NCBI RefSeq assembly: GCF_004348535.1
Contig: NZ_SMJX01000006.1
Span: forward strand, 1 to 64,000
Source of the DNA: Actinomadura sp. KC216
Lineage (GTDB): Bacteria; Actinomycetota; Actinomycetes; Streptosporangiales; Streptosporangiaceae
Direction of reading: 5' to 3'
DNA length: 64,000 nucleotides
Below the pieces are notes generated by a model. The model saw nothing but the letters and a program-made list of their open reading frames with translations. It did not search any database and was not told the origin of the DNA. Shown here in pieces: positions 8,983-18,567 of this stretch. The stretch's first letter is position 1; the number at the start of each line of letters is the position of its first letter. Both the position numbers and the translations under genes were made by a program.

Positions 8983-11535
8983 CTAGGTCACCGGATGGGA
9001 GGTCGCCTGGCGGGCTCCGGCGTCCAGGTCCCGTCCCCTCAGGGCGCGGGCCACCTCGTCCAGCCCCTCCAGCAGCAGGCGGCGCAACGCCGCCGGGATG
9101 GATCCGTCCTTCAGGTACGTCTCGGTGCGCGCCACCGTCTCGGGCTCGACGGCGTGACCCGGATAGGCGTCCCGGGCGAAGTGGTGGGCCATGTCCACGC
9201 TCCAGTCCTGCCAGATCGCGCCGACGACCTCGAAGAAGGCGTCGCGATAGGGCCGGAGCAACTTCGCGTGCTCCGGCTCGGAGAAGCCTTCGAGAAGCGC
9301 CCGGAACTCGGCGTTCGAGAGGTCGCCGCCGCAGATCCGCCGCCAGGCGGAGTCCTTGGCGTCCGGGGTGGGAACGGCGGCCGAGCAGCCGAGCGCGAGC
9401 AGGTTCCCCGAGGCGCTCGGGTCCCGGTCGAGCTGCCGGGCGATCTCCGCCTGCCCGGCCTCGCCGCGGACGACGAGGCGGCGCAGCGCCGTCCAGCGCA
9501 GGTCGACGTCGAGATCCAGGCCCGGCACGCTCCGCTCTCCGTCCAGCAGGGCCCGGATGGTCGCCAACTGGCCGGCGGAGGTGGCCGTGCGGAGGAACGA
9601 CTGGAACAGGCACAGCTGCAGCTCGGAACCGGCGGCGACCGTCCGCGCACGCTCCAGCAGCGCTCCCGCCATGTGTTCCAGTGCCGCGTCACGGTGCGCC
9701 GGGTCGGCGAACCGCACCAGCGCCTCCCTGGCCTGCCGCAGCAATGACTGGACGACCCCCACGTCGTCCACGGCGCCGGCGGCGATACCGTCGATGACGA
9801 GCCGGGCGTAGGTGCGGGCGGGCAGTTCGGCGTCCCGGCACATGTCCCACAGCGCCGCCCAGCAGACGGCGAGCGGAAGGTCCGCGCGGAACTCGCCGAT
9901 GTGCGCCGCCAGGGTGGCCAGCGACGCCGCGTCGTACCGCACCTTGGCGTAGGTGAGGTCGTCGTCGTTGAGCAGCAGCAGGTCGGGCCGGGGCTCACCG
10001 GCCAGCGCGGGCACCTCGGTGCGGGCGCCGACCACGTCGATCTCCACCCGGCGGCGGCGGACCAGCCCGGCCGGGGTCAGGTCGTACAGCCCGACGGCCA
10101 TCCGATGGGACCGGAGCACCGCGGCTTCGGACGCGGCCTCCTGAACGACGGTCAGGCTCTCCAGCCGGCCGCCGGAGTCCACGACCGGCTCGGGGCGCAG
10201 CGTGTTGACGCCCGCCGTCTCCAGCCACTCCCTCGACCAGGTCGCGAGGTCCCGGCGCGAGGTCTCCTCCAGGCACGCGAGCAGGTCCGGCAGGGTGGCG
10301 GTCCCCCACGCGTAGCGCCGGAAGTAGTCGCGCACGCCGCGCAGGAAATTGTCCGACCCGACGTAGGCCACCAGCTGTTTGAGGACGGACGCGCCCTTGT
10401 AATAGGTGATGCCGTCGAAATTGGCCTCGACCGAATGGATGTCGGGCATGCTCGTGACGATCGGATGCGTCGACGGCAGCTGGTCCTGCCTGTAGGCGAT
10501 CTCCTTGGTGGCGCTGGCGAAGGTCGTCCACGCCCCCTGCCAGCGGGTCGCCTCGGCCTGGCACAGGACGCTCATGTACGTGGCGAAGGACTCCTTGAGC
10601 CACAGGTCGTCCCACCACCGCATCGTGACAAGGTCGCCGAACCACATGTGCGCCAATTCATGCAGGATCGTCACGGCCCGGCGTTCCCGTGCCGCCTCGG
10701 TGACCCTCGAACGGAACAGGAAGTCCTCTTTGAGGGTGACGCATCCGGCGTTCTCCATCGCACCCGCATTGGCCTCGGGTACGAACAACTGGTCGTATTT
10801 GCCGAACGGGTAGGGGCGGCCGAACACCTCTTCGTAGAAGCGCAACCCCTGCCGGGTGACGTCGAAAATCTCCTCGGGCTCCACGTCCGCGGCGCGTGAC
10901 GCGCGATAGTAGAGCGCCATCGGGACCCGGCCGTCACCGTAATCCGCGGTGACCGATTCGTAATGCCCGGCGACGATCGCGGTGAGGTAGGTCGGCAGCG
11001 GCTCGGTGGCGGGGAACCGCCAGATCCCGCCCGTCTCTCGGACGGGCTGGGTGCACGAGACCACCGTCCAGTCGGGCGGGGCGGTGACCGTGAAAGTGAA
11101 CCTCGCCTTCAGGTCGGGCTGGTCGAAGCAGGCGTATACGCGGCTGGCCTCCGCGCACTCGAACTGGCTGTGCAGGTAGACGCGGCCGTCCGGGGGGTCG
11201 ACGAACCGGTGCAGGCCCTCGCCGGTGCGCGAGTACGGCAGCTCCGCGACGACCGTCAGTTCGTTCGCCGCGCGAAGGCCGGAAAGGCTGAGACGGCCCG
11301 TCCGGGAATCGTAGTCGCCGCCGTCGAGAAGGCGGCCGTTCAACCGGGCCGCCGACACCGCGGCACCGTGCAGATCGGCGAAGGTGTCGGCGGAAGGATC
11401 CGCGCATTCGAACCGCACGGTCGTGGTCGAACGGAACGTCTCGGCACCGGTGAGATCGAGCTCGATCTCGTATTCGCGAACCCGGAGCAGCGCAGCGCGC
11501 CGAAATGCCTCGTCCTTGGTGAGCCGGCTCGCCAT
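8983..11535 (-). CDS. pepN: M1-family aminopeptidase N
   Basis: This is an 850-residue zinc aminopeptidase of normal family length. It has the exopeptidase motif GAMENAG and the zinc motif HELAH at residues 292-296, with the third ligand Glu in WLKESFATY about 19 residues later. An ERAP1-like helical C-terminal region follows. ATG 11535 is preferred; an upstream ATG at 11544 has a ribosome site too close to it. Most actinobacteria have a housekeeping pepN, but this copy is divergent from an exporter and next to a peptide-biosynthesis locus. It could trim a leader peptide, as M1 enzymes do in some lanthipeptide pathways. That role is inference. Confidence 0.9.
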   Translation of the reverse strand: MASRLTKDEAFRRAALLRVREYEIELDLTGAETFRSTTTVRFECADPSADTFADLHGAAVSAARLNGRLLDGGDYDSRTGRLSLSGLRAANELTVVAELPYSRTGEGLHRFVDPPDGRVYLHSQFECAEASRVYACFDQPDLKARFTFTVTAPPDWTVVSCTQPVRETGGIWRFPATEPLPTYLTAIVAGHYESVTADYGDGRVPMALYYRASRAADVEPEEIFDVTRQGLRFYEEVFGRPYPFGKYDQLFVPEANAGAMENAGCVTLKEDFLFRSRVTEAARERRAVTILHELAHMWFGDLVTMRWWDDLWLKESFATYMSVLCQAEATRWQGAWTTFASATKEIAYRQDQLPSTHPIVTSMPDIHSVEANFDGITYYKGASVLKQLVAYVGSDNFLRGVRDYFRRYAWGTATLPDLLACLEETSRRDLATWSREWLETAGVNTLRPEPVVDSGGRLESLTVVQEAASEAAVLRSHRMAVGLYDLTPAGLVRRRRVEIDVVGARTEVPALAGEPRPDLLLLNDDDLTYAKVRYDAASLATLAAHIGEFRADLPLAVCWAALWDMCRDAELPARTYARLVIDGIAAGAVDDVGVVQSLLRQAREALVRFADPAHRDAALEHMAGALLERARTVAAGSELQLCLFQSFLRTATSAGQLATIRALLDGERSVPGLDLDVDLRWTALRRLVVRGEAGQAEIARQLDRDPSASGNLLALGCSAAVPTPDAKDSAWRRICGGDLSNAEFRALLEGFSEPEHAKLLRPYRDAFFEVVGAIWQDWSVDMAHHFARDAYPGHAVEPETVARTETYLKDGSIPAALRRLLLEGLDEVARALRGRDLDAGARQATSHPVT

Positions 11536-11571
11536 GACGATCATTCCACAACGTGCACAAGGACATCACCA

Positions 11572-11587
11572 GTAGCCGATCGGCTAC
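11572..11587. promoter_or_regulatory. Perfect 16-bp palindrome in divergent promoter
   Basis: GTAGCCGATCGGCTAC is an uninterrupted perfect palindrome between the divergent aminopeptidase and MFS genes. It lies 36 bp upstream of the putative -10 box of the MFS gene (TATCTT, 11623-11628). Its form and place fit an operator for a homodimeric repressor controlling both genes. The regulator is not known; the LuxR pair at 15605-17704 are the nearest candidates. Confidence 0.5.
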
Positions 11588-11622
11588 GCCGGACGGCGGG
11601 ACCGCATTCCCAGGCGGCCGCC

Positions 11623-11628
11623 TATCTT
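11623..11628 (+). promoter_or_regulatory. Putative -10 box of the MFS gene
   Basis: TATCTT is separated by 7 bases from the ATG at 11636. This spacing puts the transcript start at or next to the start codon, as in leaderless actinobacterial mRNAs. A GGGAG lies in the same 7 bases, so a conventional ribosome site with an earlier promoter is the alternative. Confidence 0.35.
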
Positions 11629-11635
11629 GGGAGCC

Positions 11636-12898
11636 ATGAGATCATTACTCGCCGGTCTCGGCTGGTGGGACGCGCTGACCAGCAAGGGAACCATTCGGCT
11701 GCTGGCCGTGCAATCCCTGATCGACGCGCTCGGCACCGGAATCGCGCTCGTCGTCCTGCCGTTCTTCGCCTCCAGGGCGGCGGGGCTCTCCGCCGGCGAG
11801 ATCGCGCTCGTCCTTTCCGCCGGCGGGATATGCGAGTTCGCCGCCGCCGTCCCCAACGGAGTGATCGCGGGACGCATCGGTGTGCGGAAATTCATCGTGC
11901 TGGCCCACCTCGTCCAGGGCGCGTCGTACGTCGTGGTCGCATTGGCCAGCGGCCTGCCGCTCATACTGGCGGGGACCATGCTGGCCGGTCTGTCACGCGC
12001 GGGATCGGGCGGGTTGAGCCAGGTGCTCACGGCGAACGTGCTCGGGGAGGACCAGAGATCCGGCGCCCTCGGCTCGATCCGGGCGCTGCGCAATATCGGC
12101 TATCTGCTGGCGGGCGGGACGACCAGCCTGATCCTCACCATCGATAGCGAGATGGGAATGCGAGTCGGGCTCCTGCTGAACACGGCGTCCTTCTTCCTGT
12201 CCGCGTACTGGACGATCCGGCTTCCCGCCACCGACCCCGCCGAGGCCCGGCCCACGACCGGAAGAAATTGGTCGGTGCTGCGCGACTACCAGTATTTCGG
12301 GCTCATCTGCAGCGCCTCCGTTTTCAGCAGCAGCCTGATGGTGCTCAGCGTCGGCCTGCCGCTGTGGGCGCTGCACGAAGACCAGGTGCCCAACTGGACG
12401 GTGTCGCTCGTCGTGACGCTGAACACCGCCCTGGTCATCATCCTGCAGTACCGCTTCTCCGAGAGGCTCAAGACCGTCCGGAGCTCCATCACCGGCGTCA
12501 GGCTGAGCGGCTGGATGTTCGTGGCGACCGCGGTGCTGATCGCGCTGACCGCGTCCCGCCCCCTCTGGTTGACGGTGGCGCTGCTGGTCGGCGCGGCTCT
12601 GGCGCTGACCCTCGGCGAGCTCCTGGAGTCGCCGGCGTTCTGGACTCTCTCCTACGAGCTCGCGCCTGCGGACCACCGGAGCGAGTACATGTCGACGTTC
12701 GACCTCAACCGCGCCGGCATGTCCATCGCCGGCCCGCCCGCCATGGCCGCCGTCGTGGCTCTGGGCGTCACCGGCTGGCTGCTGTACGCGGCGGCCCTGC
12801 TGGCCGCCGGCTACGGCGGCGCCTGGATCGCGTCCCGCAGAACCACCCGCTTCACCGTCCCCGCTCCGGCGGCAGAGGTCCCCGCCCAGCCCGGATGA
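11636..12898 (+). CDS. MFS transporter
   Basis: The 420-residue product has about twelve hydrophobic segments in two halves split by a polar loop (about residues 200-215). The first pair of helices is joined by a short loop carrying NGVIAGRIGVRKF, the MFS motif-A region. It resembles drug- or peptide-exporting MFS proteins of antibiotic clusters. The start is ATG 11636 with GGGAG just before it; an in-frame TTG at 11627 is less likely. It lies directly upstream of the small peptide gene at 13024, so export of, or self-protection against, that product is a reasonable inference. Confidence 0.85.
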   Translation: MRSLLAGLGWWDALTSKGTIRLLAVQSLIDALGTGIALVVLPFFASRAAGLSAGEIALVLSAGGICEFAAAVPNGVIAGRIGVRKFIVLAHLVQGASYVVVALASGLPLILAGTMLAGLSRAGSGGLSQVLTANVLGEDQRSGALGSIRALRNIGYLLAGGTTSLILTIDSEMGMRVGLLLNTASFFLSAYWTIRLPATDPAEARPTTGRNWSVLRDYQYFGLICSASVFSSSLMVLSVGLPLWALHEDQVPNWTVSLVVTLNTALVIILQYRFSERLKTVRSSITGVRLSGWMFVATAVLIALTASRPLWLTVALLVGAALALTLGELLESPAFWTLSYELAPADHRSEYMSTFDLNRAGMSIAGPPAMAAVVALGVTGWLLYAAALLAAGYGGAWIASRRTTRFTVPAPAAEVPAQPG

Positions 12899-13010
12899 TC
12901 ATTCCCGAAAGTTGAGCGCGGCCTGAGTGGACGACCTTCCACGGTTACCACAATGGTCCATCGCCCCCCACCCCCAGGTTTAGGGATATCGGCCCGTCCC
13001 CGGCGCCGCC

Positions 13011-13016
13011 TAGCGT
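13011..13016 (+). promoter_or_regulatory. Putative -10 box of the precursor-peptide gene
   Basis: TAGCGT lies 7 bases before the ATG at 13024. This is the same spacing as for the MFS gene and would give a leaderless transcript. No good -35 box is visible 17 bp upstream. Function is inferred from spacing only. Confidence 0.35.
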
Positions 13017-13023
13017 GACGCTC

Positions 13024-13173
13024 ATGGGAAACGGCGGGCTCGGAATGAGCATTCGTCAGGTCCGCCCGCTCCCGTTCATCAACGGGGGAAAGGTGGTGAG
13101 AAAGATGACGAAGATCAAGATCCGGAAGCTGGACAAGCTCGAGACCACGGGCGACCGGAAGAACAACACCTGA
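13024..13173 (+). CDS. Putative RiPP precursor peptide
   Basis: The frame from ATG 13024 gives 49 residues. Internal in-frame starts (GTG 13093, GTG 13096, ATG 13105), preceded by GGGGGAAAGG, would give 22-27 residues. The C-terminal part is very basic, with KIKIRKLDKLETTG followed by a polar tail ending NNT. That pattern of an amphipathic LD/LE leader and a short polar core is common for peptides recognised by RRE domains. The gene directly precedes the ThiF-RRE and M50 genes and is followed by a strong hairpin, as precursor genes often are. No Cys or Ser is in the tail, so the modification is more likely on Asp, Asn, Lys, Thr or the C-terminus. The core is unknown. Confidence 0.6.
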   Translation: MGNGGLGMSIRQVRPLPFINGGKVVRKMTKIKIRKLDKLETTGDRKNNT

Positions 13174-13181
13174 GTACGGGT

Positions 13182-13219
13182 GCCGGGGGTCGCGCGTCCT
13201 GCGGGACCCGGCCCCCGGC
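13182..13219 (+). terminator. Hairpin after precursor gene, likely attenuator
   Basis: GCCGGGGG at 13182-13189 pairs perfectly with CCCCCGGC at 13212-13219. An alternative inner stem GGGTC/GACCC is also possible. No U-run follows, so it may reduce rather than stop transcription. Precursor-peptide genes often use such a hairpin to make more peptide mRNA than enzyme mRNA. Confidence 0.5.
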
Positions 13220-13260
13220 CCTTCTCGGAATCCGTCATTTCTTTCTCGGGGGACGATCTC

Positions 13261-14364
13261 ATGTTGAAACCACGCATCAAGACCGCGCATCTGCCCGTCC
13301 GCCGTCCGGACGGGATGATCTGGATCGGCAGCCGCCACTACGGGCTGGGCAGCGAACTCGACGACGAGTCGGGCCTGGTGTGGCCGCTCTGCGAGCGCAT
13401 GGACGGGACGCTCCGCAAGGACGAGCTGATCGCCGTCGTGGCCGCCGAGCAGGCCGCCGACCCCGCCGACGTCGCCGAGGTCGCGGACTTCCTGATCGCG
13501 TCCGGCTGGGCGGAGGACGCGGGCTCGGAGCCGCCGCCGTCGCTGTCGGAGCGCGAGCTCAGGCGGTACGAGCGCGGCGTCCAGTTCCAGTCCTGGATCG
13601 ACATCGCGCCCCGGTCGCACCCGTACGAGCTGCAGGCCCGGCTGAAGGCCGCCGCGGTGGCGGTGCTGGGCATGGGCGGGATCGGCTGCGCGGTCGCGTC
13701 GAGCCTCGCCGCGTCCGGGGTCGGGCGGATCCACTGCGTCGACTTCGACGAGGTCGAGCTGACCAACCTCAACCGGCAGCTGCTGTACACCGAGGCCGAC
13801 CTCGGGCGGCGCAAGGTCGAGGTCGCCGTCCAGCGGCTCCGCGCGCTGAACTCCGACGTCGAGATCACCGGGGCCGACCTGCGGCTGGACAGCGCCGACG
13901 ATGTCGCCGGCGCGGTGCGCGGCGCGGACGTCTTCCTGCTGTGCGCCGACAGCCCCGAGGGGATCGAGCACTTCGCCAGCCAGGCCGCGCTGCGCCTCGG
14001 CACGCCGTGGCTGAACGGCGCCTACGCGGGGCCGATGCTGTGCGCGGGCACGTTCATCCCGGGCGAGACCGGCTGCTACCGCTGCATGCGGGACGGCGAG
14101 CGGGAACGGCTGGAGTCGGTGGGCCGCGGCGACCTGTCCAACCCGCGGATCCCCGGATTCAACCCGGTGATGGCGCCGACCGCCCAGATGGCCGGGCACT
14201 TCGCCGCCCTGGAGGCCATCTTCCTGCTGCTCGGGATGCCCGTGCAGACGGCCGGCAGGAAGCTGCACCGCAACTTCCTGGACTACGACCACCAGTACTA
14301 CATCGAGGCGAAGAAGCGGCCGGACTGCCCGGACTGCGGGGACGCCGCCCGCCGCGAGGGCTGA
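13261..14364 (+). CDS. ThiF/E1-like adenylyltransferase with N-terminal RRE-like region
   Basis: The 367-residue protein begins with about 95 residues of PqqD/RRE-like character: a strand pair, then helices ending in VADFLIASGWAED. An E1-like adenylating domain follows, with GMGGIGC at about 137-143, DFDEVELTNLNRQLLY and the two zinc pairs CYRC (272-275) and CPDC (356-359). Fused RRE-ThiF enzymes such as PaaA of pantocin A, and the related MccB of microcin C, activate peptide carboxylates with ATP. The gene follows the small peptide gene and has GGGGGA before its ATG. The most likely role is adenylation of a side-chain or C-terminal carboxylate of the precursor. Confidence 0.85.
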   Translation: MLKPRIKTAHLPVRRPDGMIWIGSRHYGLGSELDDESGLVWPLCERMDGTLRKDELIAVVAAEQAADPADVAEVADFLIASGWAEDAGSEPPPSLSERELRRYERGVQFQSWIDIAPRSHPYELQARLKAAAVAVLGMGGIGCAVASSLAASGVGRIHCVDFDEVELTNLNRQLLYTEADLGRRKVEVAVQRLRALNSDVEITGADLRLDSADDVAGAVRGADVFLLCADSPEGIEHFASQAALRLGTPWLNGAYAGPMLCAGTFIPGETGCYRCMRDGERERLESVGRGDLSNPRIPGFNPVMAPTAQMAGHFAALEAIFLLLGMPVQTAGRKLHRNFLDYDHQYYIEAKKRPDCPDCGDAARREG

Positions 14365-14367
14365 AAC

Positions 14368-15615
14368 GTGCCCGTCACTTCGGAGAGCCGGGTCGAGCTG
14401 CACCCGCTCCAGTACAGGGACGAGGGCGGCGGGCAGTGGATCGTCGGCCGTGCGGACATCGGCGAGTTCGTCGAGGTGCCAGCCGAGGCGGCCACCTTCC
14501 TGCGCGCCCTCGGCGACGGTTCGGACCTCCACGCCGCGTGCGACCGCGTCCGCGGCGCGCACGGCGAGGACATCGACGCCGTGTCCTTCGTCGACGACCT
14601 GGTCGACCTGGGGTTCGTCGCCCGCCTCGACGGTGTCGCGATCGGCGAGCCGCCGCGCCCGCCCAGCCTGCGCCGGCTGCGTCCGGAGCACGTCCGCTGG
14701 GCGTTCCGGTGGCCGGTGCTGGTGGCGGTCTACGCCTTCATCCTCGCCGGGCTCGCGGCCTCCGCCAGGCGCGGCGACCTGATCCCGAGCTTCCACGTGT
14801 ACTTCATCACCGGCTCGCAGAGCGTGAACCTGGCCTGGAACACCGCGATGATGCTGACGGCGATCGCGATCCACGAGTTCTGGCACCTGGCCGCCGCGCG
14901 GGTCGACGGCGTCCACGCGCGGTTCGGGCTGGGGACGCGCCTGCAGGTCCTCGTCGCCCAGACGACGGTGGCGGGGCTGTGGGGCGCGCCCCGCCGGGCC
15001 CGGTTCCGGGTCTACCTCGCCGGCGTCACGTCCGACCTGGTGATCATGGCGGGCTGCTCGCTGGCCATCGAGGTCTTCGCCCCTTCGGGATTCGCGCTGC
15101 GATCGCTCCAGGCGCTGACCCTCAGCCTGCTGCTGTCGATCGCCCAGCAGTTCGCCCTGTACATGCGGACCGACATGTACTTCGTGCTGCAGGAATGGCT
15201 GCGGTGCAAGAACCTGTACGCCGACGGCTGGCGCTATGTCCGGTACGTCACGCGGCGGACGGCGGCGGCGCTGCGCGGCCGGCAGGCGCCCGCGAATCCT
15301 CTGCACGACGTGCCGCCCCATGAGCGGCGGCCGGTCAAGGTGTACTCGTGGCTCATGCTGGTCGGTTCCTTCTTGTCGGTCGCCCTGTTCCTCTATTACG
15401 AAGGGCCGATCCTGGTCCATCTGTTCGCCAGGGCGGGCGAGCACGCCATCGACGGGACCATGTCGGGCAACGTCGCGAAGATCGCCGACGGGATCACGGT
15501 CTTCGCCATCGAGGGAACGCTTCAGGTGCTCTTCATCCGCCTGTTCATCGTGAAGCACGCACCGAAGCTGCGCGCGGCGTTCGGCTTCTTCCGCGTTGCG
15601 GCCGTCAGGCGTTGA
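14368..15615 (+). CDS. Membrane M50 (site-2-protease-like) peptidase with RRE-like N-terminus
   Basis: The product has 415 residues, starting at GTG 14368, three bases after the ThiF stop. Residues 1-90 again look PqqD-like (VPAEAATFLRAL, then VDDLVDLGFVARL). About six hydrophobic helices follow, the second or third carrying the zinc motif HEFWH (residues 169-173). It resembles membrane M50 'peptide zinc metalloproteases' found in bacterial peptide clusters. It is probably a polytopic membrane protease that removes the leader or releases the modified peptide. The gene overlaps the convergent LuxR gene by 11 bp at its 3' end. Confidence 0.85.
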   Translation: MPVTSESRVELHPLQYRDEGGGQWIVGRADIGEFVEVPAEAATFLRALGDGSDLHAACDRVRGAHGEDIDAVSFVDDLVDLGFVARLDGVAIGEPPRPPSLRRLRPEHVRWAFRWPVLVAVYAFILAGLAASARRGDLIPSFHVYFITGSQSVNLAWNTAMMLTAIAIHEFWHLAAARVDGVHARFGLGTRLQVLVAQTTVAGLWGAPRRARFRVYLAGVTSDLVIMAGCSLAIEVFAPSGFALRSLQALTLSLLLSIAQQFALYMRTDMYFVLQEWLRCKNLYADGWRYVRYVTRRTAAALRGRQAPANPLHDVPPHERRPVKVYSWLMLVGSFLSVALFLYYEGPILVHLFARAGEHAIDGTMSGNVAKIADGITVFAIEGTLQVLFIRLFIVKHAPKLRAAFGFFRVAAVRR

Positions 15616-16612
15616 TGACCGCCATGAGCTCGTCGCGCCCGCCGGTGCCGGTCTTGCGGAAGATCGCCTTGAGGTGGTCGTTGACCGTGTGGACGGACAG
15701 CCCGAACGCGCGCGCGATCTGCTTCGGCGCCGAACCGCGATGGAGGTGCCGCACGACCTGGCGTTCGCGGGCCGTGATCCCGTACCAGTCGCAGAACGAG
15801 GGAAGCAGGAGCGTCCCGGTCGCACGCTGGATCACGACCGCGACGTCGCCGTCGTCGCCGAGCGGCTGCGCCTCGATCGCGGTCCACCAGCCGGCCCCCA
15901 CCGAGGGGACGCACAACCGCGGGGGTTCCGGGTGCTCGCGCGCCGCGGCCGCGAGCGAGGCGTACGAGGACTCGGCCAGCCAGTCCGGGACCGCCAGATG
16001 CGCCTTCATCGCGTCCAGCCACCGCCGCGCCTGCGGCGTCATGGCGCGGATCCGGTCGTCGGCGCCGATGACGAGCATGCCCGGCGGCGGTTCCCGCTCC
16101 GCGGGCGCGCCGGGCTTCGCCGTCACGTACCCGCGCAGCGCGGCGATCAGCGAAGGCCCGAGCTCGGCGACCCGCCACGCGTCGGCGTCGTCGAACGGGC
16201 GCCCGCCCGCCGCGCGCAGCAGGCAGAGCACTCCCCACACTCCCCGCGCGTCCCGCAGTGCGAGGCGCAGCTCTTCACCGACCCGATGCCTGGCGAGCAG
16301 CGGGTCGTGCGCGCGAGCACGGAGAGCGGCCACGACCGTCGGGGCCGCCTGCCGGACCAGCTCCCGCACGTCCGCTTTGACGCCGTCCACGCTCAGTAGC
16401 GCGCGGCCGAGGTCGGGCGGGTACCCGTGCCAGAACGCCAGCGAGGTGGCGCCCCAGCCCGTCGCCGGGTTCAGCGCCCCGCACCGCAGCGCGTCGTGCG
16501 CCACCACCCGCGCGACCACCCGCGAAAGCTCGGCCCCGACCTCCTCCAGCCCGGCGCCGGGCTGGAGCGCCGCACACAGGTCCCAAGCCACCCGATCACT
16601 GACCGCCACCAT
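15605..16612 (-). CDS. LuxR-family regulator, first of a paralogous pair
   Basis: The 335-residue protein starts at ATG 16612, with GGTGG upstream. Its N-terminal 260 residues form a putative sensor region with no named domain I can be sure of. The C-terminus is a GerE/LuxR helix-turn-helix, WYGITARERQVVRHL to LSVHTVNDHLKAIFRKTG. It is clearly paralogous to the next gene: both share the VIAHDAL/VVAHDAL and FWHxYxPD segments and the CDWYGI linker. Position beside the peptide locus makes it a likely pathway regulator. Confidence 0.85.
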   Translation of the reverse strand: MVAVSDRVAWDLCAALQPGAGLEEVGAELSRVVARVVAHDALRCGALNPATGWGATSLAFWHGYPPDLGRALLSVDGVKADVRELVRQAAPTVVAALRARAHDPLLARHRVGEELRLALRDARGVWGVLCLLRAAGGRPFDDADAWRVAELGPSLIAALRGYVTAKPGAPAEREPPPGMLVIGADDRIRAMTPQARRWLDAMKAHLAVPDWLAESSYASLAAAAREHPEPPRLCVPSVGAGWWTAIEAQPLGDDGDVAVVIQRATGTLLLPSFCDWYGITARERQVVRHLHRGSAPKQIARAFGLSVHTVNDHLKAIFRKTGTGGRDELMAVINA

Positions 16613-16663
16613 GCCACCAGTGGGGTCGCAACGGGTAGCGCACATCAGCCGGATACCAATCGG

Positions 16664-17704
16664 TTAGGAGAAGGCGGCCAGGAGTTCGTCTCGGCCGCTC
16701 GCGCCGGTCTTGCGGAAGACCGCTTTGAGGTGGTCGTTGACCGTGTGCACGGACAGATCGAGATAGCGCGCTATCTGCTTGGGAGCCCTCGCCTCGCGCA
16801 AATGGGTGATGATCTGGCGCTCGCGCGCGGAAATGCCGTACCAGTCACAGAAGGCCGGCAGTAGCTGCTCGGCGCTCGCCGCCTGGATGATGAGCGCCAC
16901 GTCGTCGGTGCCCTTCAGGATCTGCCCGTGCGCGGCGACCCAGCGGCCGTAGGTCGCGGACGGGCCCACGATCAGCGGGGGGACGGCGCGCGGGTCGCGG
17001 GCGTGCCGCCGAGTCTGCTCCGCCAGCCCGGCGGTGAACGACTCGCGGGTCCAGCGCGGGGCGCGGGCGTGCTTCTCCAGCTGCTCCCGCCACCGGAACG
17101 CCTCCGGAGTGGCCGTCCGGATCGCCTGGTCGGGACCAACGATGATCACGCCCGGCGGCGGCGAGGGGACGGGCGGAGCCAGCGGACCCGCGGTGACGTA
17201 GGAGCGCAGGAAGCCGATCAGCCTCGGCACGAGCCGCGTCGCCCACCCCACATCGGCCTCGTCGAACGACCTGCCGCCTTCGGCCCGCACCAGGCCGACC
17301 TGCCCCCAGAGGCCGTGGACGTCCCGCAGCATCAGCCGCATCTCGGCCGCGATCCCGTGCTCCGCCGCAAGGCGCCGCGCGGCACGGTCGTGCGGCGCGT
17401 CCCCGTTTCCCGGCAGGACGGTGACCATCGGCCGTCGCGCGGGATCATCCGGCAGGTACGTGTCGCCACCGGCGTAGTCGGTGCGCAGCAGGGCCCGGCA
17501 GAAGTCGGGTTCGTAGGCGTGCCAGAAGCCGAAGGACCACAACACGGATCCCGCGTTCGGGCTGGTGGCCACCAGCCGCAGCGCGTCGTGGGCGATCACG
17601 GGCCTGATCGCGCTCGACAGCGCCTCCGCCAGTTGCCCCGCACTCGTGCAGAGCGCGGCCGCCTCTTTCAACTCACCTAACAATCGATCATTGACTGTCA
17701 CCAC
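16664..17704 (-). CDS. LuxR-family regulator, second of a paralogous pair
   Basis: The 346-residue product is taken from GTG 17704, with AGGA 9 bases upstream. Longer in-frame starts exist (to 18088), but the extension is not protein-like and alignment with the paralogue at 15605-16612 ends here. The C-terminal helix-turn-helix runs from CDWYGISARERQIITHL through LSVHTVNDHLKAVFRKTG. The N-terminal region shares AHDALR and FGFWHAYEPDFCRALL with its neighbour. The two genes are 51 bp apart and probably arose by duplication. Both may read one ligand or form a heterodimer; this is inference. Confidence 0.85.
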   Translation of the reverse strand: MVTVNDRLLGELKEAAALCTSAGQLAEALSSAIRPVIAHDALRLVATSPNAGSVLWSFGFWHAYEPDFCRALLRTDYAGGDTYLPDDPARRPMVTVLPGNGDAPHDRAARRLAAEHGIAAEMRLMLRDVHGLWGQVGLVRAEGGRSFDEADVGWATRLVPRLIGFLRSYVTAGPLAPPVPSPPPGVIIVGPDQAIRTATPEAFRWREQLEKHARAPRWTRESFTAGLAEQTRRHARDPRAVPPLIVGPSATYGRWVAAHGQILKGTDDVALIIQAASAEQLLPAFCDWYGISARERQIITHLREARAPKQIARYLDLSVHTVNDHLKAVFRKTGASGRDELLAAFS

Positions 17705-18090: not shown

Positions 18091-18567
18091 GTGGTGCTCA
18101 ATGACCCGCGTTCAGAGTCGGGGGCGCGTGTGCCGCCTGAGCCCGATGAGCCGTGGCGTGTCCGTTCGCGGCGCAGGCGGCCGCGGTGGCGCCGCGGGCT
18201 GCCGGTGGTGGCGCCTCTGATCAGCGCCATCGTGGCTTCGCTCGGCACCGCCGCCGTGCTCCATGTCGGGGACGCCTCGCACCCGGCGCCACCGCGGCCT
18301 CAGAAGGCGAGTGTCGGGACGAGCAGTGGCCTGCAGCGGCAGTCTCCTGCGCCGCACACCCCGAAGAAGGGGGAGGCGCCGCACACCCCGAAGAGGTGGA
18401 AACTGGACCGCTCGGCCCCGCGTCGCTCCCTGTCACCGCCTCAGCGGCCGCAGAGGACGCGCCGGGTACCGGCGTGGGTCCGCGACGAATGCCACCGCCG
18501 GTACCCCCGCGACGCCACCCGCCGAGCCGCGTGCATCGCCGCACTACGCGGCTACCTCAGCCGGTGA
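18091..18567 (+). CDS. Small single-pass membrane protein, unknown
   Basis: The 158-residue product, from GTG 18091, has an Arg-rich cytoplasmic N-terminus. One transmembrane helix follows (PVVAPLISAIVASLGTAAVL, about 39-58), then a long Pro/Arg/Lys-rich linker. A compact C-terminal segment has a Cys pair (AWVRDECHRRYP and AACIAALRG). I do not recognise a function. Arg- and Pro-rich composition is partly a product of GC content, so expression is not certain, but the helix and Cys-bearing end argue for a real gene. It is not in an operon. Confidence 0.5.
   Translation: MVLNDPRSESGARVPPEPDEPWRVRSRRRRPRWRRGLPVVAPLISAIVASLGTAAVLHVGDASHPAPPRPQKASVGTSSGLQRQSPAPHTPKKGEAPHTPKRWKLDRSAPRRSLSPPQRPQRTRRVPAWVRDECHRRYPRDATRRAACIAALRGYLSR

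Follow-up and report, generated by a model that had tools for sequence, protein, structure and literature searches.

In a stretch of 64,000 nucleotides from Actinomadura sp. KC216 (contig NZ_SMJX01000006.1, positions 1 to 64,000; hereafter the window), part of a 9.06-Mb genome in 667 contigs, three co-directed genes lie between a gene for a major facilitator superfamily (MFS) transporter and two genes for LuxR-type regulators (Table 1). They span ~2.5 kb and encode a short precursor peptide, a ThiF-type adenylyltransferase bearing at its N-terminus the recognition element (RRE) of ribosomally synthesised and post-translationally modified peptides (RiPPs), and an M50 membrane metalloprotease. 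A first-pass annotation of this DNA had proposed a new RiPP locus here, with carboxylate chemistry as the most plausible modification. Our comparative analysis agrees on both points: the cassette is probably a compact RiPP unit in which the ThiF enzyme adenylates the C-terminal carboxylate of the peptide for capture by a nucleophile, the leader being cut off at the membrane by the M50 protease.

Among 345 genomes from the order, 100 carry ThiF relatives at E ≤ 1e-40, at 132 places (counted from the match column of the search table). We read 83 loci, namely the window, A. soli, Nonomuraea lactucae, and 80 out of the 130 remaining places. The window's clade denotes 34 of them (the window, L007, L008, and L039-L069), delimited, without support values, by the peptides and by the order of tips in a rapidly built tree of 76 of the 83 ThiF proteins. 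In 79 of the 83 loci, a short open reading frame (ORF) with a shared leader (consensus IxIRRLDKIETT) lies near the ThiF gene on the same strand, an ORF being accepted on a 12-residue leader profile when located at most 500 bases upstream of ThiF or 1,050-2,600 bases past its start. Beyond these distances the profile hits only nine times in 2.63 million bases (both strands), always in family-like sequences. Since the profile was derived from the same loci, it was cross-validated between clades. Trained on the other clades, it recovered the peptide near ThiF at 33 of 34 loci in the window's clade, and nothing distant exceeded 15 bits; trained on the window's clade, it recovered 44 of the 49 other loci, 26 of them scoring above the best distant hit, and the two distant hits above 15 bits were the L089 peptide and one in L115. 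Judged by this recurrence, the peptide gene is genuine and beyond chance. The first-pass annotation had made its proposal hinge on conservation of the peptide beside ThiF-M50 pairs, and conservation is what these loci display.

In these peptides a conserved leader is followed by a hypervariable tail, which, read from sequence, is the pattern of a RiPP precursor. All 22 distinct sequences of the window's clade share L-6, K-4, E-2, T-1, and T0 of the leader, after which core position +1 holds at least eight residue types (these and the following column counts come from related sequences and are hence non-independent). The cores of this clade are 6-8 residues long, tails run from 6 to 13 residues across the family, and the loci read hold 60 distinct cores. 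Arg stands at +3 in 21 of the 22 clade sequences, with QVARLNG, where it is at +4, as the exception, and is present in all 21 distinct clade cores. Gly closes 19 of the 22 sequences (18 of the 21 distinct cores); the window and A. soli peptides end in Thr and that of N. lactucae, whose ThiF is 67% identical, in Phe. The N. lactucae peptide, MKAIKVRKLDKLETTKVRVLLIF, sits at the same place and joins the same leader to another tail. The 46 distinct sequences of the other clades all share I-11, R-8, and L-6, and 20 of them have Ser at +3 and nine Cys; the lack of Cys and Ser in the tail that was pointed out at first pass is a property of the window's peptide and not of the family. Ten family peptides tested against NCBIfam matched no family there. 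Several loci (L070, L086, L090, L091, L146, L072, L073, and L077-L079) hold two to four leader-bearing peptides with differing cores, some of them distant from ThiF.

The precursor likely starts at the ATG at 13105. The 22-mers of the window and A. soli are told apart by a silent change in one leader codon and by K19Q in the core, as against five amino-acid changes over the 27 codons of the in-frame extension upstream; because the extension diverges faster than the 22-mer, we place the start at this ATG and ruled out a 49-residue reading from 13024. A purine-rich, Shine-Dalgarno-like stretch, recognised by eye, immediately precedes the ATG.

The best relatives of the window's ThiF protein in the PDB are MccB (3e-29), ThiF (2.5e-26), and PaaA (4.4e-24), in keeping with the kinship to PaaA and MccB assigned at first pass. 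The PaaA match covers residues 2-202 and, among the 60 PDB hits listed, is the only one to reach the N-terminal domain. A profile of the ThiF N-termini matches PaaA residues 7-89 at 1.2e-9, the next matches being unrelated (0.011 and worse), and at a permissive E of 1, Pfam recognises PqqD in 17 of 24 members (best 7.4e-6) and PaaA-like_N in 11 of 24 (best 2e-4); the window's own N-terminal stretch has no RRE family match in Pfam by itself. Residues G137, G139, G140, G142, D163, R172, Q173, K185, and D230 are invariant in 28 aligned ThiF proteins, as are the two CxxC pairs, C272/C275 and C356/C359, which had also been noticed earlier and which we take to be zinc holders. Judged by its domains, the protein is a ThiF-like adenylyltransferase of the RiPP kind, with an N-terminal RRE, as the first-pass annotation had it, and an adenylation domain bearing the presumed catalytic Arg, Lys, and Asp.

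An enzyme of this ancestry could in principle partner a YcaO protein or serve a sulfur carrier, the peptide being incidental. TIGR03882, the leader-binding family of thiazole/oxazole-modified microcins (TOMMs), does match ThiF at 2e-5, below its cut-off, and the genome has four YcaO matches; all four lie on other contigs than the cassette, on which ground a TOMM/azoline or ocin-ThiF partnership was rejected. Sulfur-carrier chemistry is disfavoured in turn, for the NCRTAG stretch of E. coli ThiF, presumably the place of its catalytic Cys, aligns with NPRIPG in the window's protein, without Cys. With the ATP-site residues invariant and the peptide so consistently present, this explanation appears extremely improbable.

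Microcin C suggests another course, in which ThiF forms a peptide-nucleotide through an N-P bond on a C-terminal Asn, yielding a Trojan-horse inhibitor of a tRNA synthetase. MccB has the closest adenylation domain by sequence and came first in a fold search of the ThiF model (a poor model, from a three-sequence alignment), the neighbouring MFS protein is of the same transporter type as MccC, and 18 of the 39 distinct cores outside the window's clade end in Asn, often as ...SNSTGN or ...GNSN, loosely resembling MccA MRTGNAN. In the window's clade, however, none of the 21 distinct cores ends in Asn, Gly being the usual last residue and Thr that of the window; no MccD, MccE, or MccF type was found among the eight window proteins scanned against profile libraries; and the MFS gene is not common to A. 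soli. A microcin-C-type product is thus unlikely, and of the lactam, amide, and nucleotidyl options listed at first pass, it is nucleotidylation that is disfavoured for the window's clade.

The protease carries HEFWH at residues 169-173, and H169, E170, H173, and D269, the last probably the third zinc ligand, are invariant in 27 aligned M50 proteins. By its HExxH motif, its candidate third ligand, and its membrane character, the protein is an M50 peptidase; phmmer found no relative of it in the PDB at E 1. The M50 gene lies directly downstream of ThiF throughout the window's clade (34 of 34 loci), and tblastn detected it in 28 of the 49 other loci. ThiF and M50 distances over 61 loci correlate with r 0.973, a value reached in 0 of 999 permutations; common ancestry alone could yield such a correlation. 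In two loci where M50 gave no hit, a peptidase of another family is encoded downstream of ThiF, one of the signal peptidase S26 type (L106:9238-10320), the other of a prolyl oligopeptidase type (L118:8919-11333).

The RRE-like N-terminus that the first pass also ascribed to M50 is visible chiefly in the relatives of the window's protein: at E 1, PqqD is matched (best 2e-7) by 14 of 25 members, the window's own not among them. When the N-terminal profile of M50 was aligned with that of ThiF, the probability was 80%. A search of the M50 N-terminal profile against the PDB was weak and mixed, with TbiB1 first (0.074), followed by S100 proteins among which TfuB1 (0.39) and a PqqD protein (0.91) are interspersed. 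The model of this domain has the secondary-structure order bbb-aaa, and its first four Foldseek matches are TbiB1 and ThcOx, at a probability of 0.84-0.98 but E values of 0.37-0.66; TbiB1, TfuB1, and ThcOx are RRE-containing proteins. The relatives and the weak fold matches hint at an RRE on M50.

Membrane M50 proteases mature other RiPPs (EpeP of epipeptides, TglG and TmoG of pearlins), as described in the available text of the protease review PMC10885120; compared by description only, the protease here may differ in its RRE-like N-terminal domain. According to the same text, TglG and TmoG trim modified residues from scaffold C-termini, and the peptide here might likewise be a reusable scaffold whose last residue is activated and altered, M50 acting as a carboxypeptidase that frees a small molecule. 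Short cores and the frequent C-terminal Gly would suit such a role; hypervariable cores are odd for a scaffold, and no LanB/PEARL-type protein was found among the eight window and ten neighbour proteins scanned. We give this pearlin-like alternative little credence.

To return to the cassette as a leader-guided unit, the RRE-ThiF enzymes known so far activate a carboxylate by adenylation and leave it to be attacked by a nucleophile (PMC12150305, PMC12250964, each in the portion available). Nine of the 21 distinct cores in the window's clade have neither Asp nor Glu, so a core side-chain carboxylate is not a general target, which leaves the C-terminal carboxylate or a leader Glu. Eight of the 21 lack any Lys, Ser, Thr, Cys, Trp, Tyr, or His; capture would therefore fall to Arg, to an amide of the backbone or of a side chain, to the two Thr of the leader, to an amine set free, or to a molecule from outside. 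All 39 distinct cores of the other clades contain at least one of Lys, Ser, Thr, and Cys. Because Arg is in every clade core, eight of which are without the usual nucleophiles, and because +3 is Ser or Cys in 29 of the 46 other sequences, we entertain, as a long shot, that the conserved core Arg is the nucleophile in the window's clade, its guanidino group being joined to the C-terminal carboxylate in a side-chain-to-tail acylguanidine ring of 4-6 residues, with Ser or Cys at about the same position giving a lactone or thiolactone in sister clades. The core Arg may instead serve recognition or cleavage.

Taken together, and with activation and leader docking drawn by analogy with characterised relatives, these considerations suggest the following sequence of events: (i) the RRE of ThiF would dock the IRKLDKLETT leader, and the core C-terminus would enter the active site; (ii) ATP would convert the C-terminal carboxylate into an acyl-adenylate; (iii) this would be captured by an amine or by a core nucleophile, either a backbone amide or the side chain of a residue near +3, giving a macrocycle or a C-terminal amide; (iv) the membrane M50 protease would dock the same leader through its own RRE and cut near ETT, releasing a short product, of 6-8 residues in the window's clade; and (v) export would be through the protease or by way of a pump not encoded in the cassette.

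Several observations weigh against this scheme. Four loci (L051, L089, L117, and L118) have no same-strand peptide; that of L089 is on the opposite strand, and in L051, L117, and L118 none was recognised by eye in three short frames either side. Pfam Peptidase_M50 matches the window's protease at only 0.0073 (16.1 bits against a cut-off of 27.2), the window's own M50 N-terminus has no RRE match in Pfam, and 21 of the 49 loci outside the clade gave no tblastn M50 hit, so that M50 is not obligatory family-wide. The AlphaFold models are poor (mean predicted local distance difference test scores of 51.5 and 46.1, from three-sequence alignments), which makes the fold searches weak support. No exporter is generally conserved across the loci. 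Finally, the activated carboxylate could be that of a conserved leader Glu (-2, or Glu/Asp at -5).

Comparison with characterised types places the cassette near several of them. Four types of ThiF-like-adenylyltransferase RiPP (microcin C, pantocin, GRC, and enterofaecin) are outlined in the available part of PMC12250964, and a fifth, indolylamide (Ind), in that of PMC12150305. The enterofaecin pair EnfA/EnfB shares the combination of RRE and adenylyltransferase and an activated C-terminal carboxylate; the essential Arg167/Lys180/Asp225 of EnfB have the same spacing as R172/K185/D230 here (compared by spacing, without alignment), and its leader motif (V/I)RKA recalls (I/V)RKL (PMC12250964, as available). 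It differs in its WWIVI core, ABC transporters, and Enterococcus host, as against Arg-containing cores mostly ending in Gly, an M50 protease with an RRE-like domain, and actinobacterial hosts. The Ind system (IndA/IndF/IndP) is likewise a minimal set of precursor, ThiF, and peptidase, and its core EDTTNWYFI, with TT a little ahead of the nucleophile and a small ring closed onto the C-terminus, resembles what is proposed here; there, however, the nucleophile is Trp, the peptidase is M16, and a transporter is clustered, whereas no Trp-x-x-Ile occurs here (PMC12150305, as available). Pantocin A (PaaP/PaaA) is linked by the PaaA RRE match and by PaaA R174/K187, spaced as R172/K185 here, and set apart by the Glu-Glu-Asn core of PaaP, its follower, and the oxygenase PaaB (PMC12250964, in the part available), the core here being GDRKNNT, with no follower, and no oxygenase being found among the eight window proteins. 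The GRC type has a Glu-Cys thiolactone and two radical SAM enzymes; the window peptide has no Cys, and no radical SAM enzyme is among those eight proteins. The type-specific features tested of microcin C, pantocin, GRC, enterofaecin, Ind, TOMM/azoline, and, within the window and neighbour proteins scanned, pearlin systems were not found for the window's cassette.

Table 1. Features of the cassette and its surroundings in the window.
Feature	Position	Strand	Remarks
Precursor peptide gene	13105..13173	+	22 aa; leader MTKIKIRKLDKLETT, putative core GDRKNNT, whole peptide MTKIKIRKLDKLETTGDRKNNT
RRE-ThiF adenylyltransferase	13261..14364	+	367 aa; Pfam ThiF 2.8e-47
RRE domain of ThiF, ~residues 1-88	13261..13524	+	N-terminal profile against PaaA; PqqD in members
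M50 membrane metalloprotease with putative RRE	14368..15615	+	415 aa, GTG start; weak Pfam Peptidase_M50 match
RRE-like domain of M50, ~residues 10-87	14395..14628	+	PqqD matches in relatives, not the window's own
LuxR-type regulator 1 (LuxR1), local, outside conserved core	15605..16645	-	GerE 2.2e-9
LuxR-type regulator 2 (LuxR2), paralog of regulator 1	16664..17704	-	GerE 1e-7
MFS transporter, neighbour judged outside unit	11636..12898	+	MFS_1 6.5e-24
M1 aminopeptidase N, neighbour judged outside unit	8983..11544	-	TIGR02412 951.7 bits

The boundaries of the unit were drawn from A. soli. The whole window was compared with 40 kb of its contig NZ_VCKW01000034.1 (47.6 kb), and alignments above 200 bases were kept: window positions 12926-16649 and 16667-17293, each ~94% identical in DNA, and a match between the LuxR paralogs. 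As far as this comparison goes, the common unit is the peptide, ThiF, M50, LuxR1, and part of LuxR2, within which the shared block stops at 17293. The MFS exporter and the M1 peptidase, both counted as members at first pass (the M1 gene sits just beyond the interval 11572-17704 assigned to the locus), were found neither of them at the A. soli cassette and were rejected. The MFS protein has at best a 32% identical other match among 60 genus genomes at E 1e-30; an MFS gene of a different cluster, named from one member, lies upstream in 14 loci. The M1 gene encodes a PepN-type aminopeptidase that is present twice in this genome (the other copy, 60% identical, is at G000:C355:15311-17842) and at least once in 60 of 60 genus genomes, and the draft A. 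soli genome has one M1 match, on a contig other than the cassette's. This M1 copy beside an MFS gene without close genus relatives could be an accessory or a duplicated-target copy.

LuxR1 is convergent with M50, the two genes sharing 11 bases at the end of M50, and is 45% identical to LuxR2. The two proteins may regulate the cassette in two genomes of this genus, and the peptide-ThiF-M50 unit might then make a signalling peptide that they sense. In favour are their orientation, their place within the block shared with A. soli (LuxR2 in part), and the signalling roles suggested for the GRC and enterofaecin types in the available text of PMC12250964; yet tblastn at 1e-5 failed to find LuxR1 in any of the 81 other loci as cut, and its GAF match is weak (0.043), which makes signalling quite unlikely. 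The regulator pair named at first pass is accordingly a feature of the window and A. soli and does not extend to the family.

Gene clusters from a home-made caller, which undercounts, comprised ThiF in 79 loci, M50 in 43, DUF6879 in 20, and the MFS type in 14, with nothing else generally conserved; ten neighbour proteins were scanned with Pfam. The DUF6879-type protein stands near ThiF in 20 loci outside the window's clade, L072 among them, was Pfam-tested in L072 and L105, and is not at the window. In N. lactucae (L008:435-4460), the cassette is preceded by a transporter-like ORF and by a long one that, by eye, resembles a nonribosomal peptide synthetase, an arrangement not common to the window. 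Past the LuxR pair, an ORF at 18091-18567 (+) has a sub-threshold DUF6234 match (0.042) and a 24-base repeat at 18349-18399 in copies 27 bases apart. Scans for promoters and terminators found none, and a repeat search returned the LuxR paralogy and short repeats taken as chance.

The cassette also occurs outside the order. In a class sample of 394 genomes, 13 matched, three of them outside the order, and the four loci read from these gave a peptide in three and an M50 hit in two. A search of plasmid records returned five with a ThiF match, of which four were read and a Sporosarcina match (29.5% identity) was left out. ThiF, M50, and a leader-bearing ORF are present in Streptomyces sp. NBC_00464, Actinacidiphila glaucinigra, Nocardia sp. 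NBC_00511, and Nonomuraea gerenzanensis (an 11.85-Mb record); the short ORFs have no coding-sequence entry in the feature tables of these four records, tables that are incomplete. The Streptomyces, Actinacidiphila, and Nocardia cassettes are on plasmid records (L146, L147, and L148), and among these one ThiF has an IS5 transposase gene ~3.7 kb away and another has a MobF relaxase gene at a distance of ~2.6 kb.

We found no earlier account of the cassette, including in the available text of PMC7470986, PMC12710340, PMC7157772, and PMC7136475, in a literature search that was incomplete, with most subscription papers and all supplements outside it. The only text found to pair "RiPP recognition element" with "M50" was PMC10885120, as available. 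PMC12150305 presents a network of 27,400 RRE-ThiF fusions and mentions other promising groups, not named in the text seen; that network may well include sequences of this branch. The cassette looks like a so far undescribed route to short modified peptides.

ThiF-like enzymes keep yielding new bond types. In the texts covered, as far as these were available, most characterised ThiF-like RiPP examples belong to Gram-negative bacteria, to Bacillus, or to lactic acid bacteria, and here a large actinobacterial branch is added. Should the core Arg prove to be the nucleophile, one enzyme family would work with a swappable nucleophile alongside a protease bearing what may be its own leader-docking domain. 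The leader profile is a probe for precursors overlooked by annotation, and a readable leader code, 60 cores, the small span, and a protease with an RRE-like domain make leader docking, core tolerance, and ring chemistry testable in this family.

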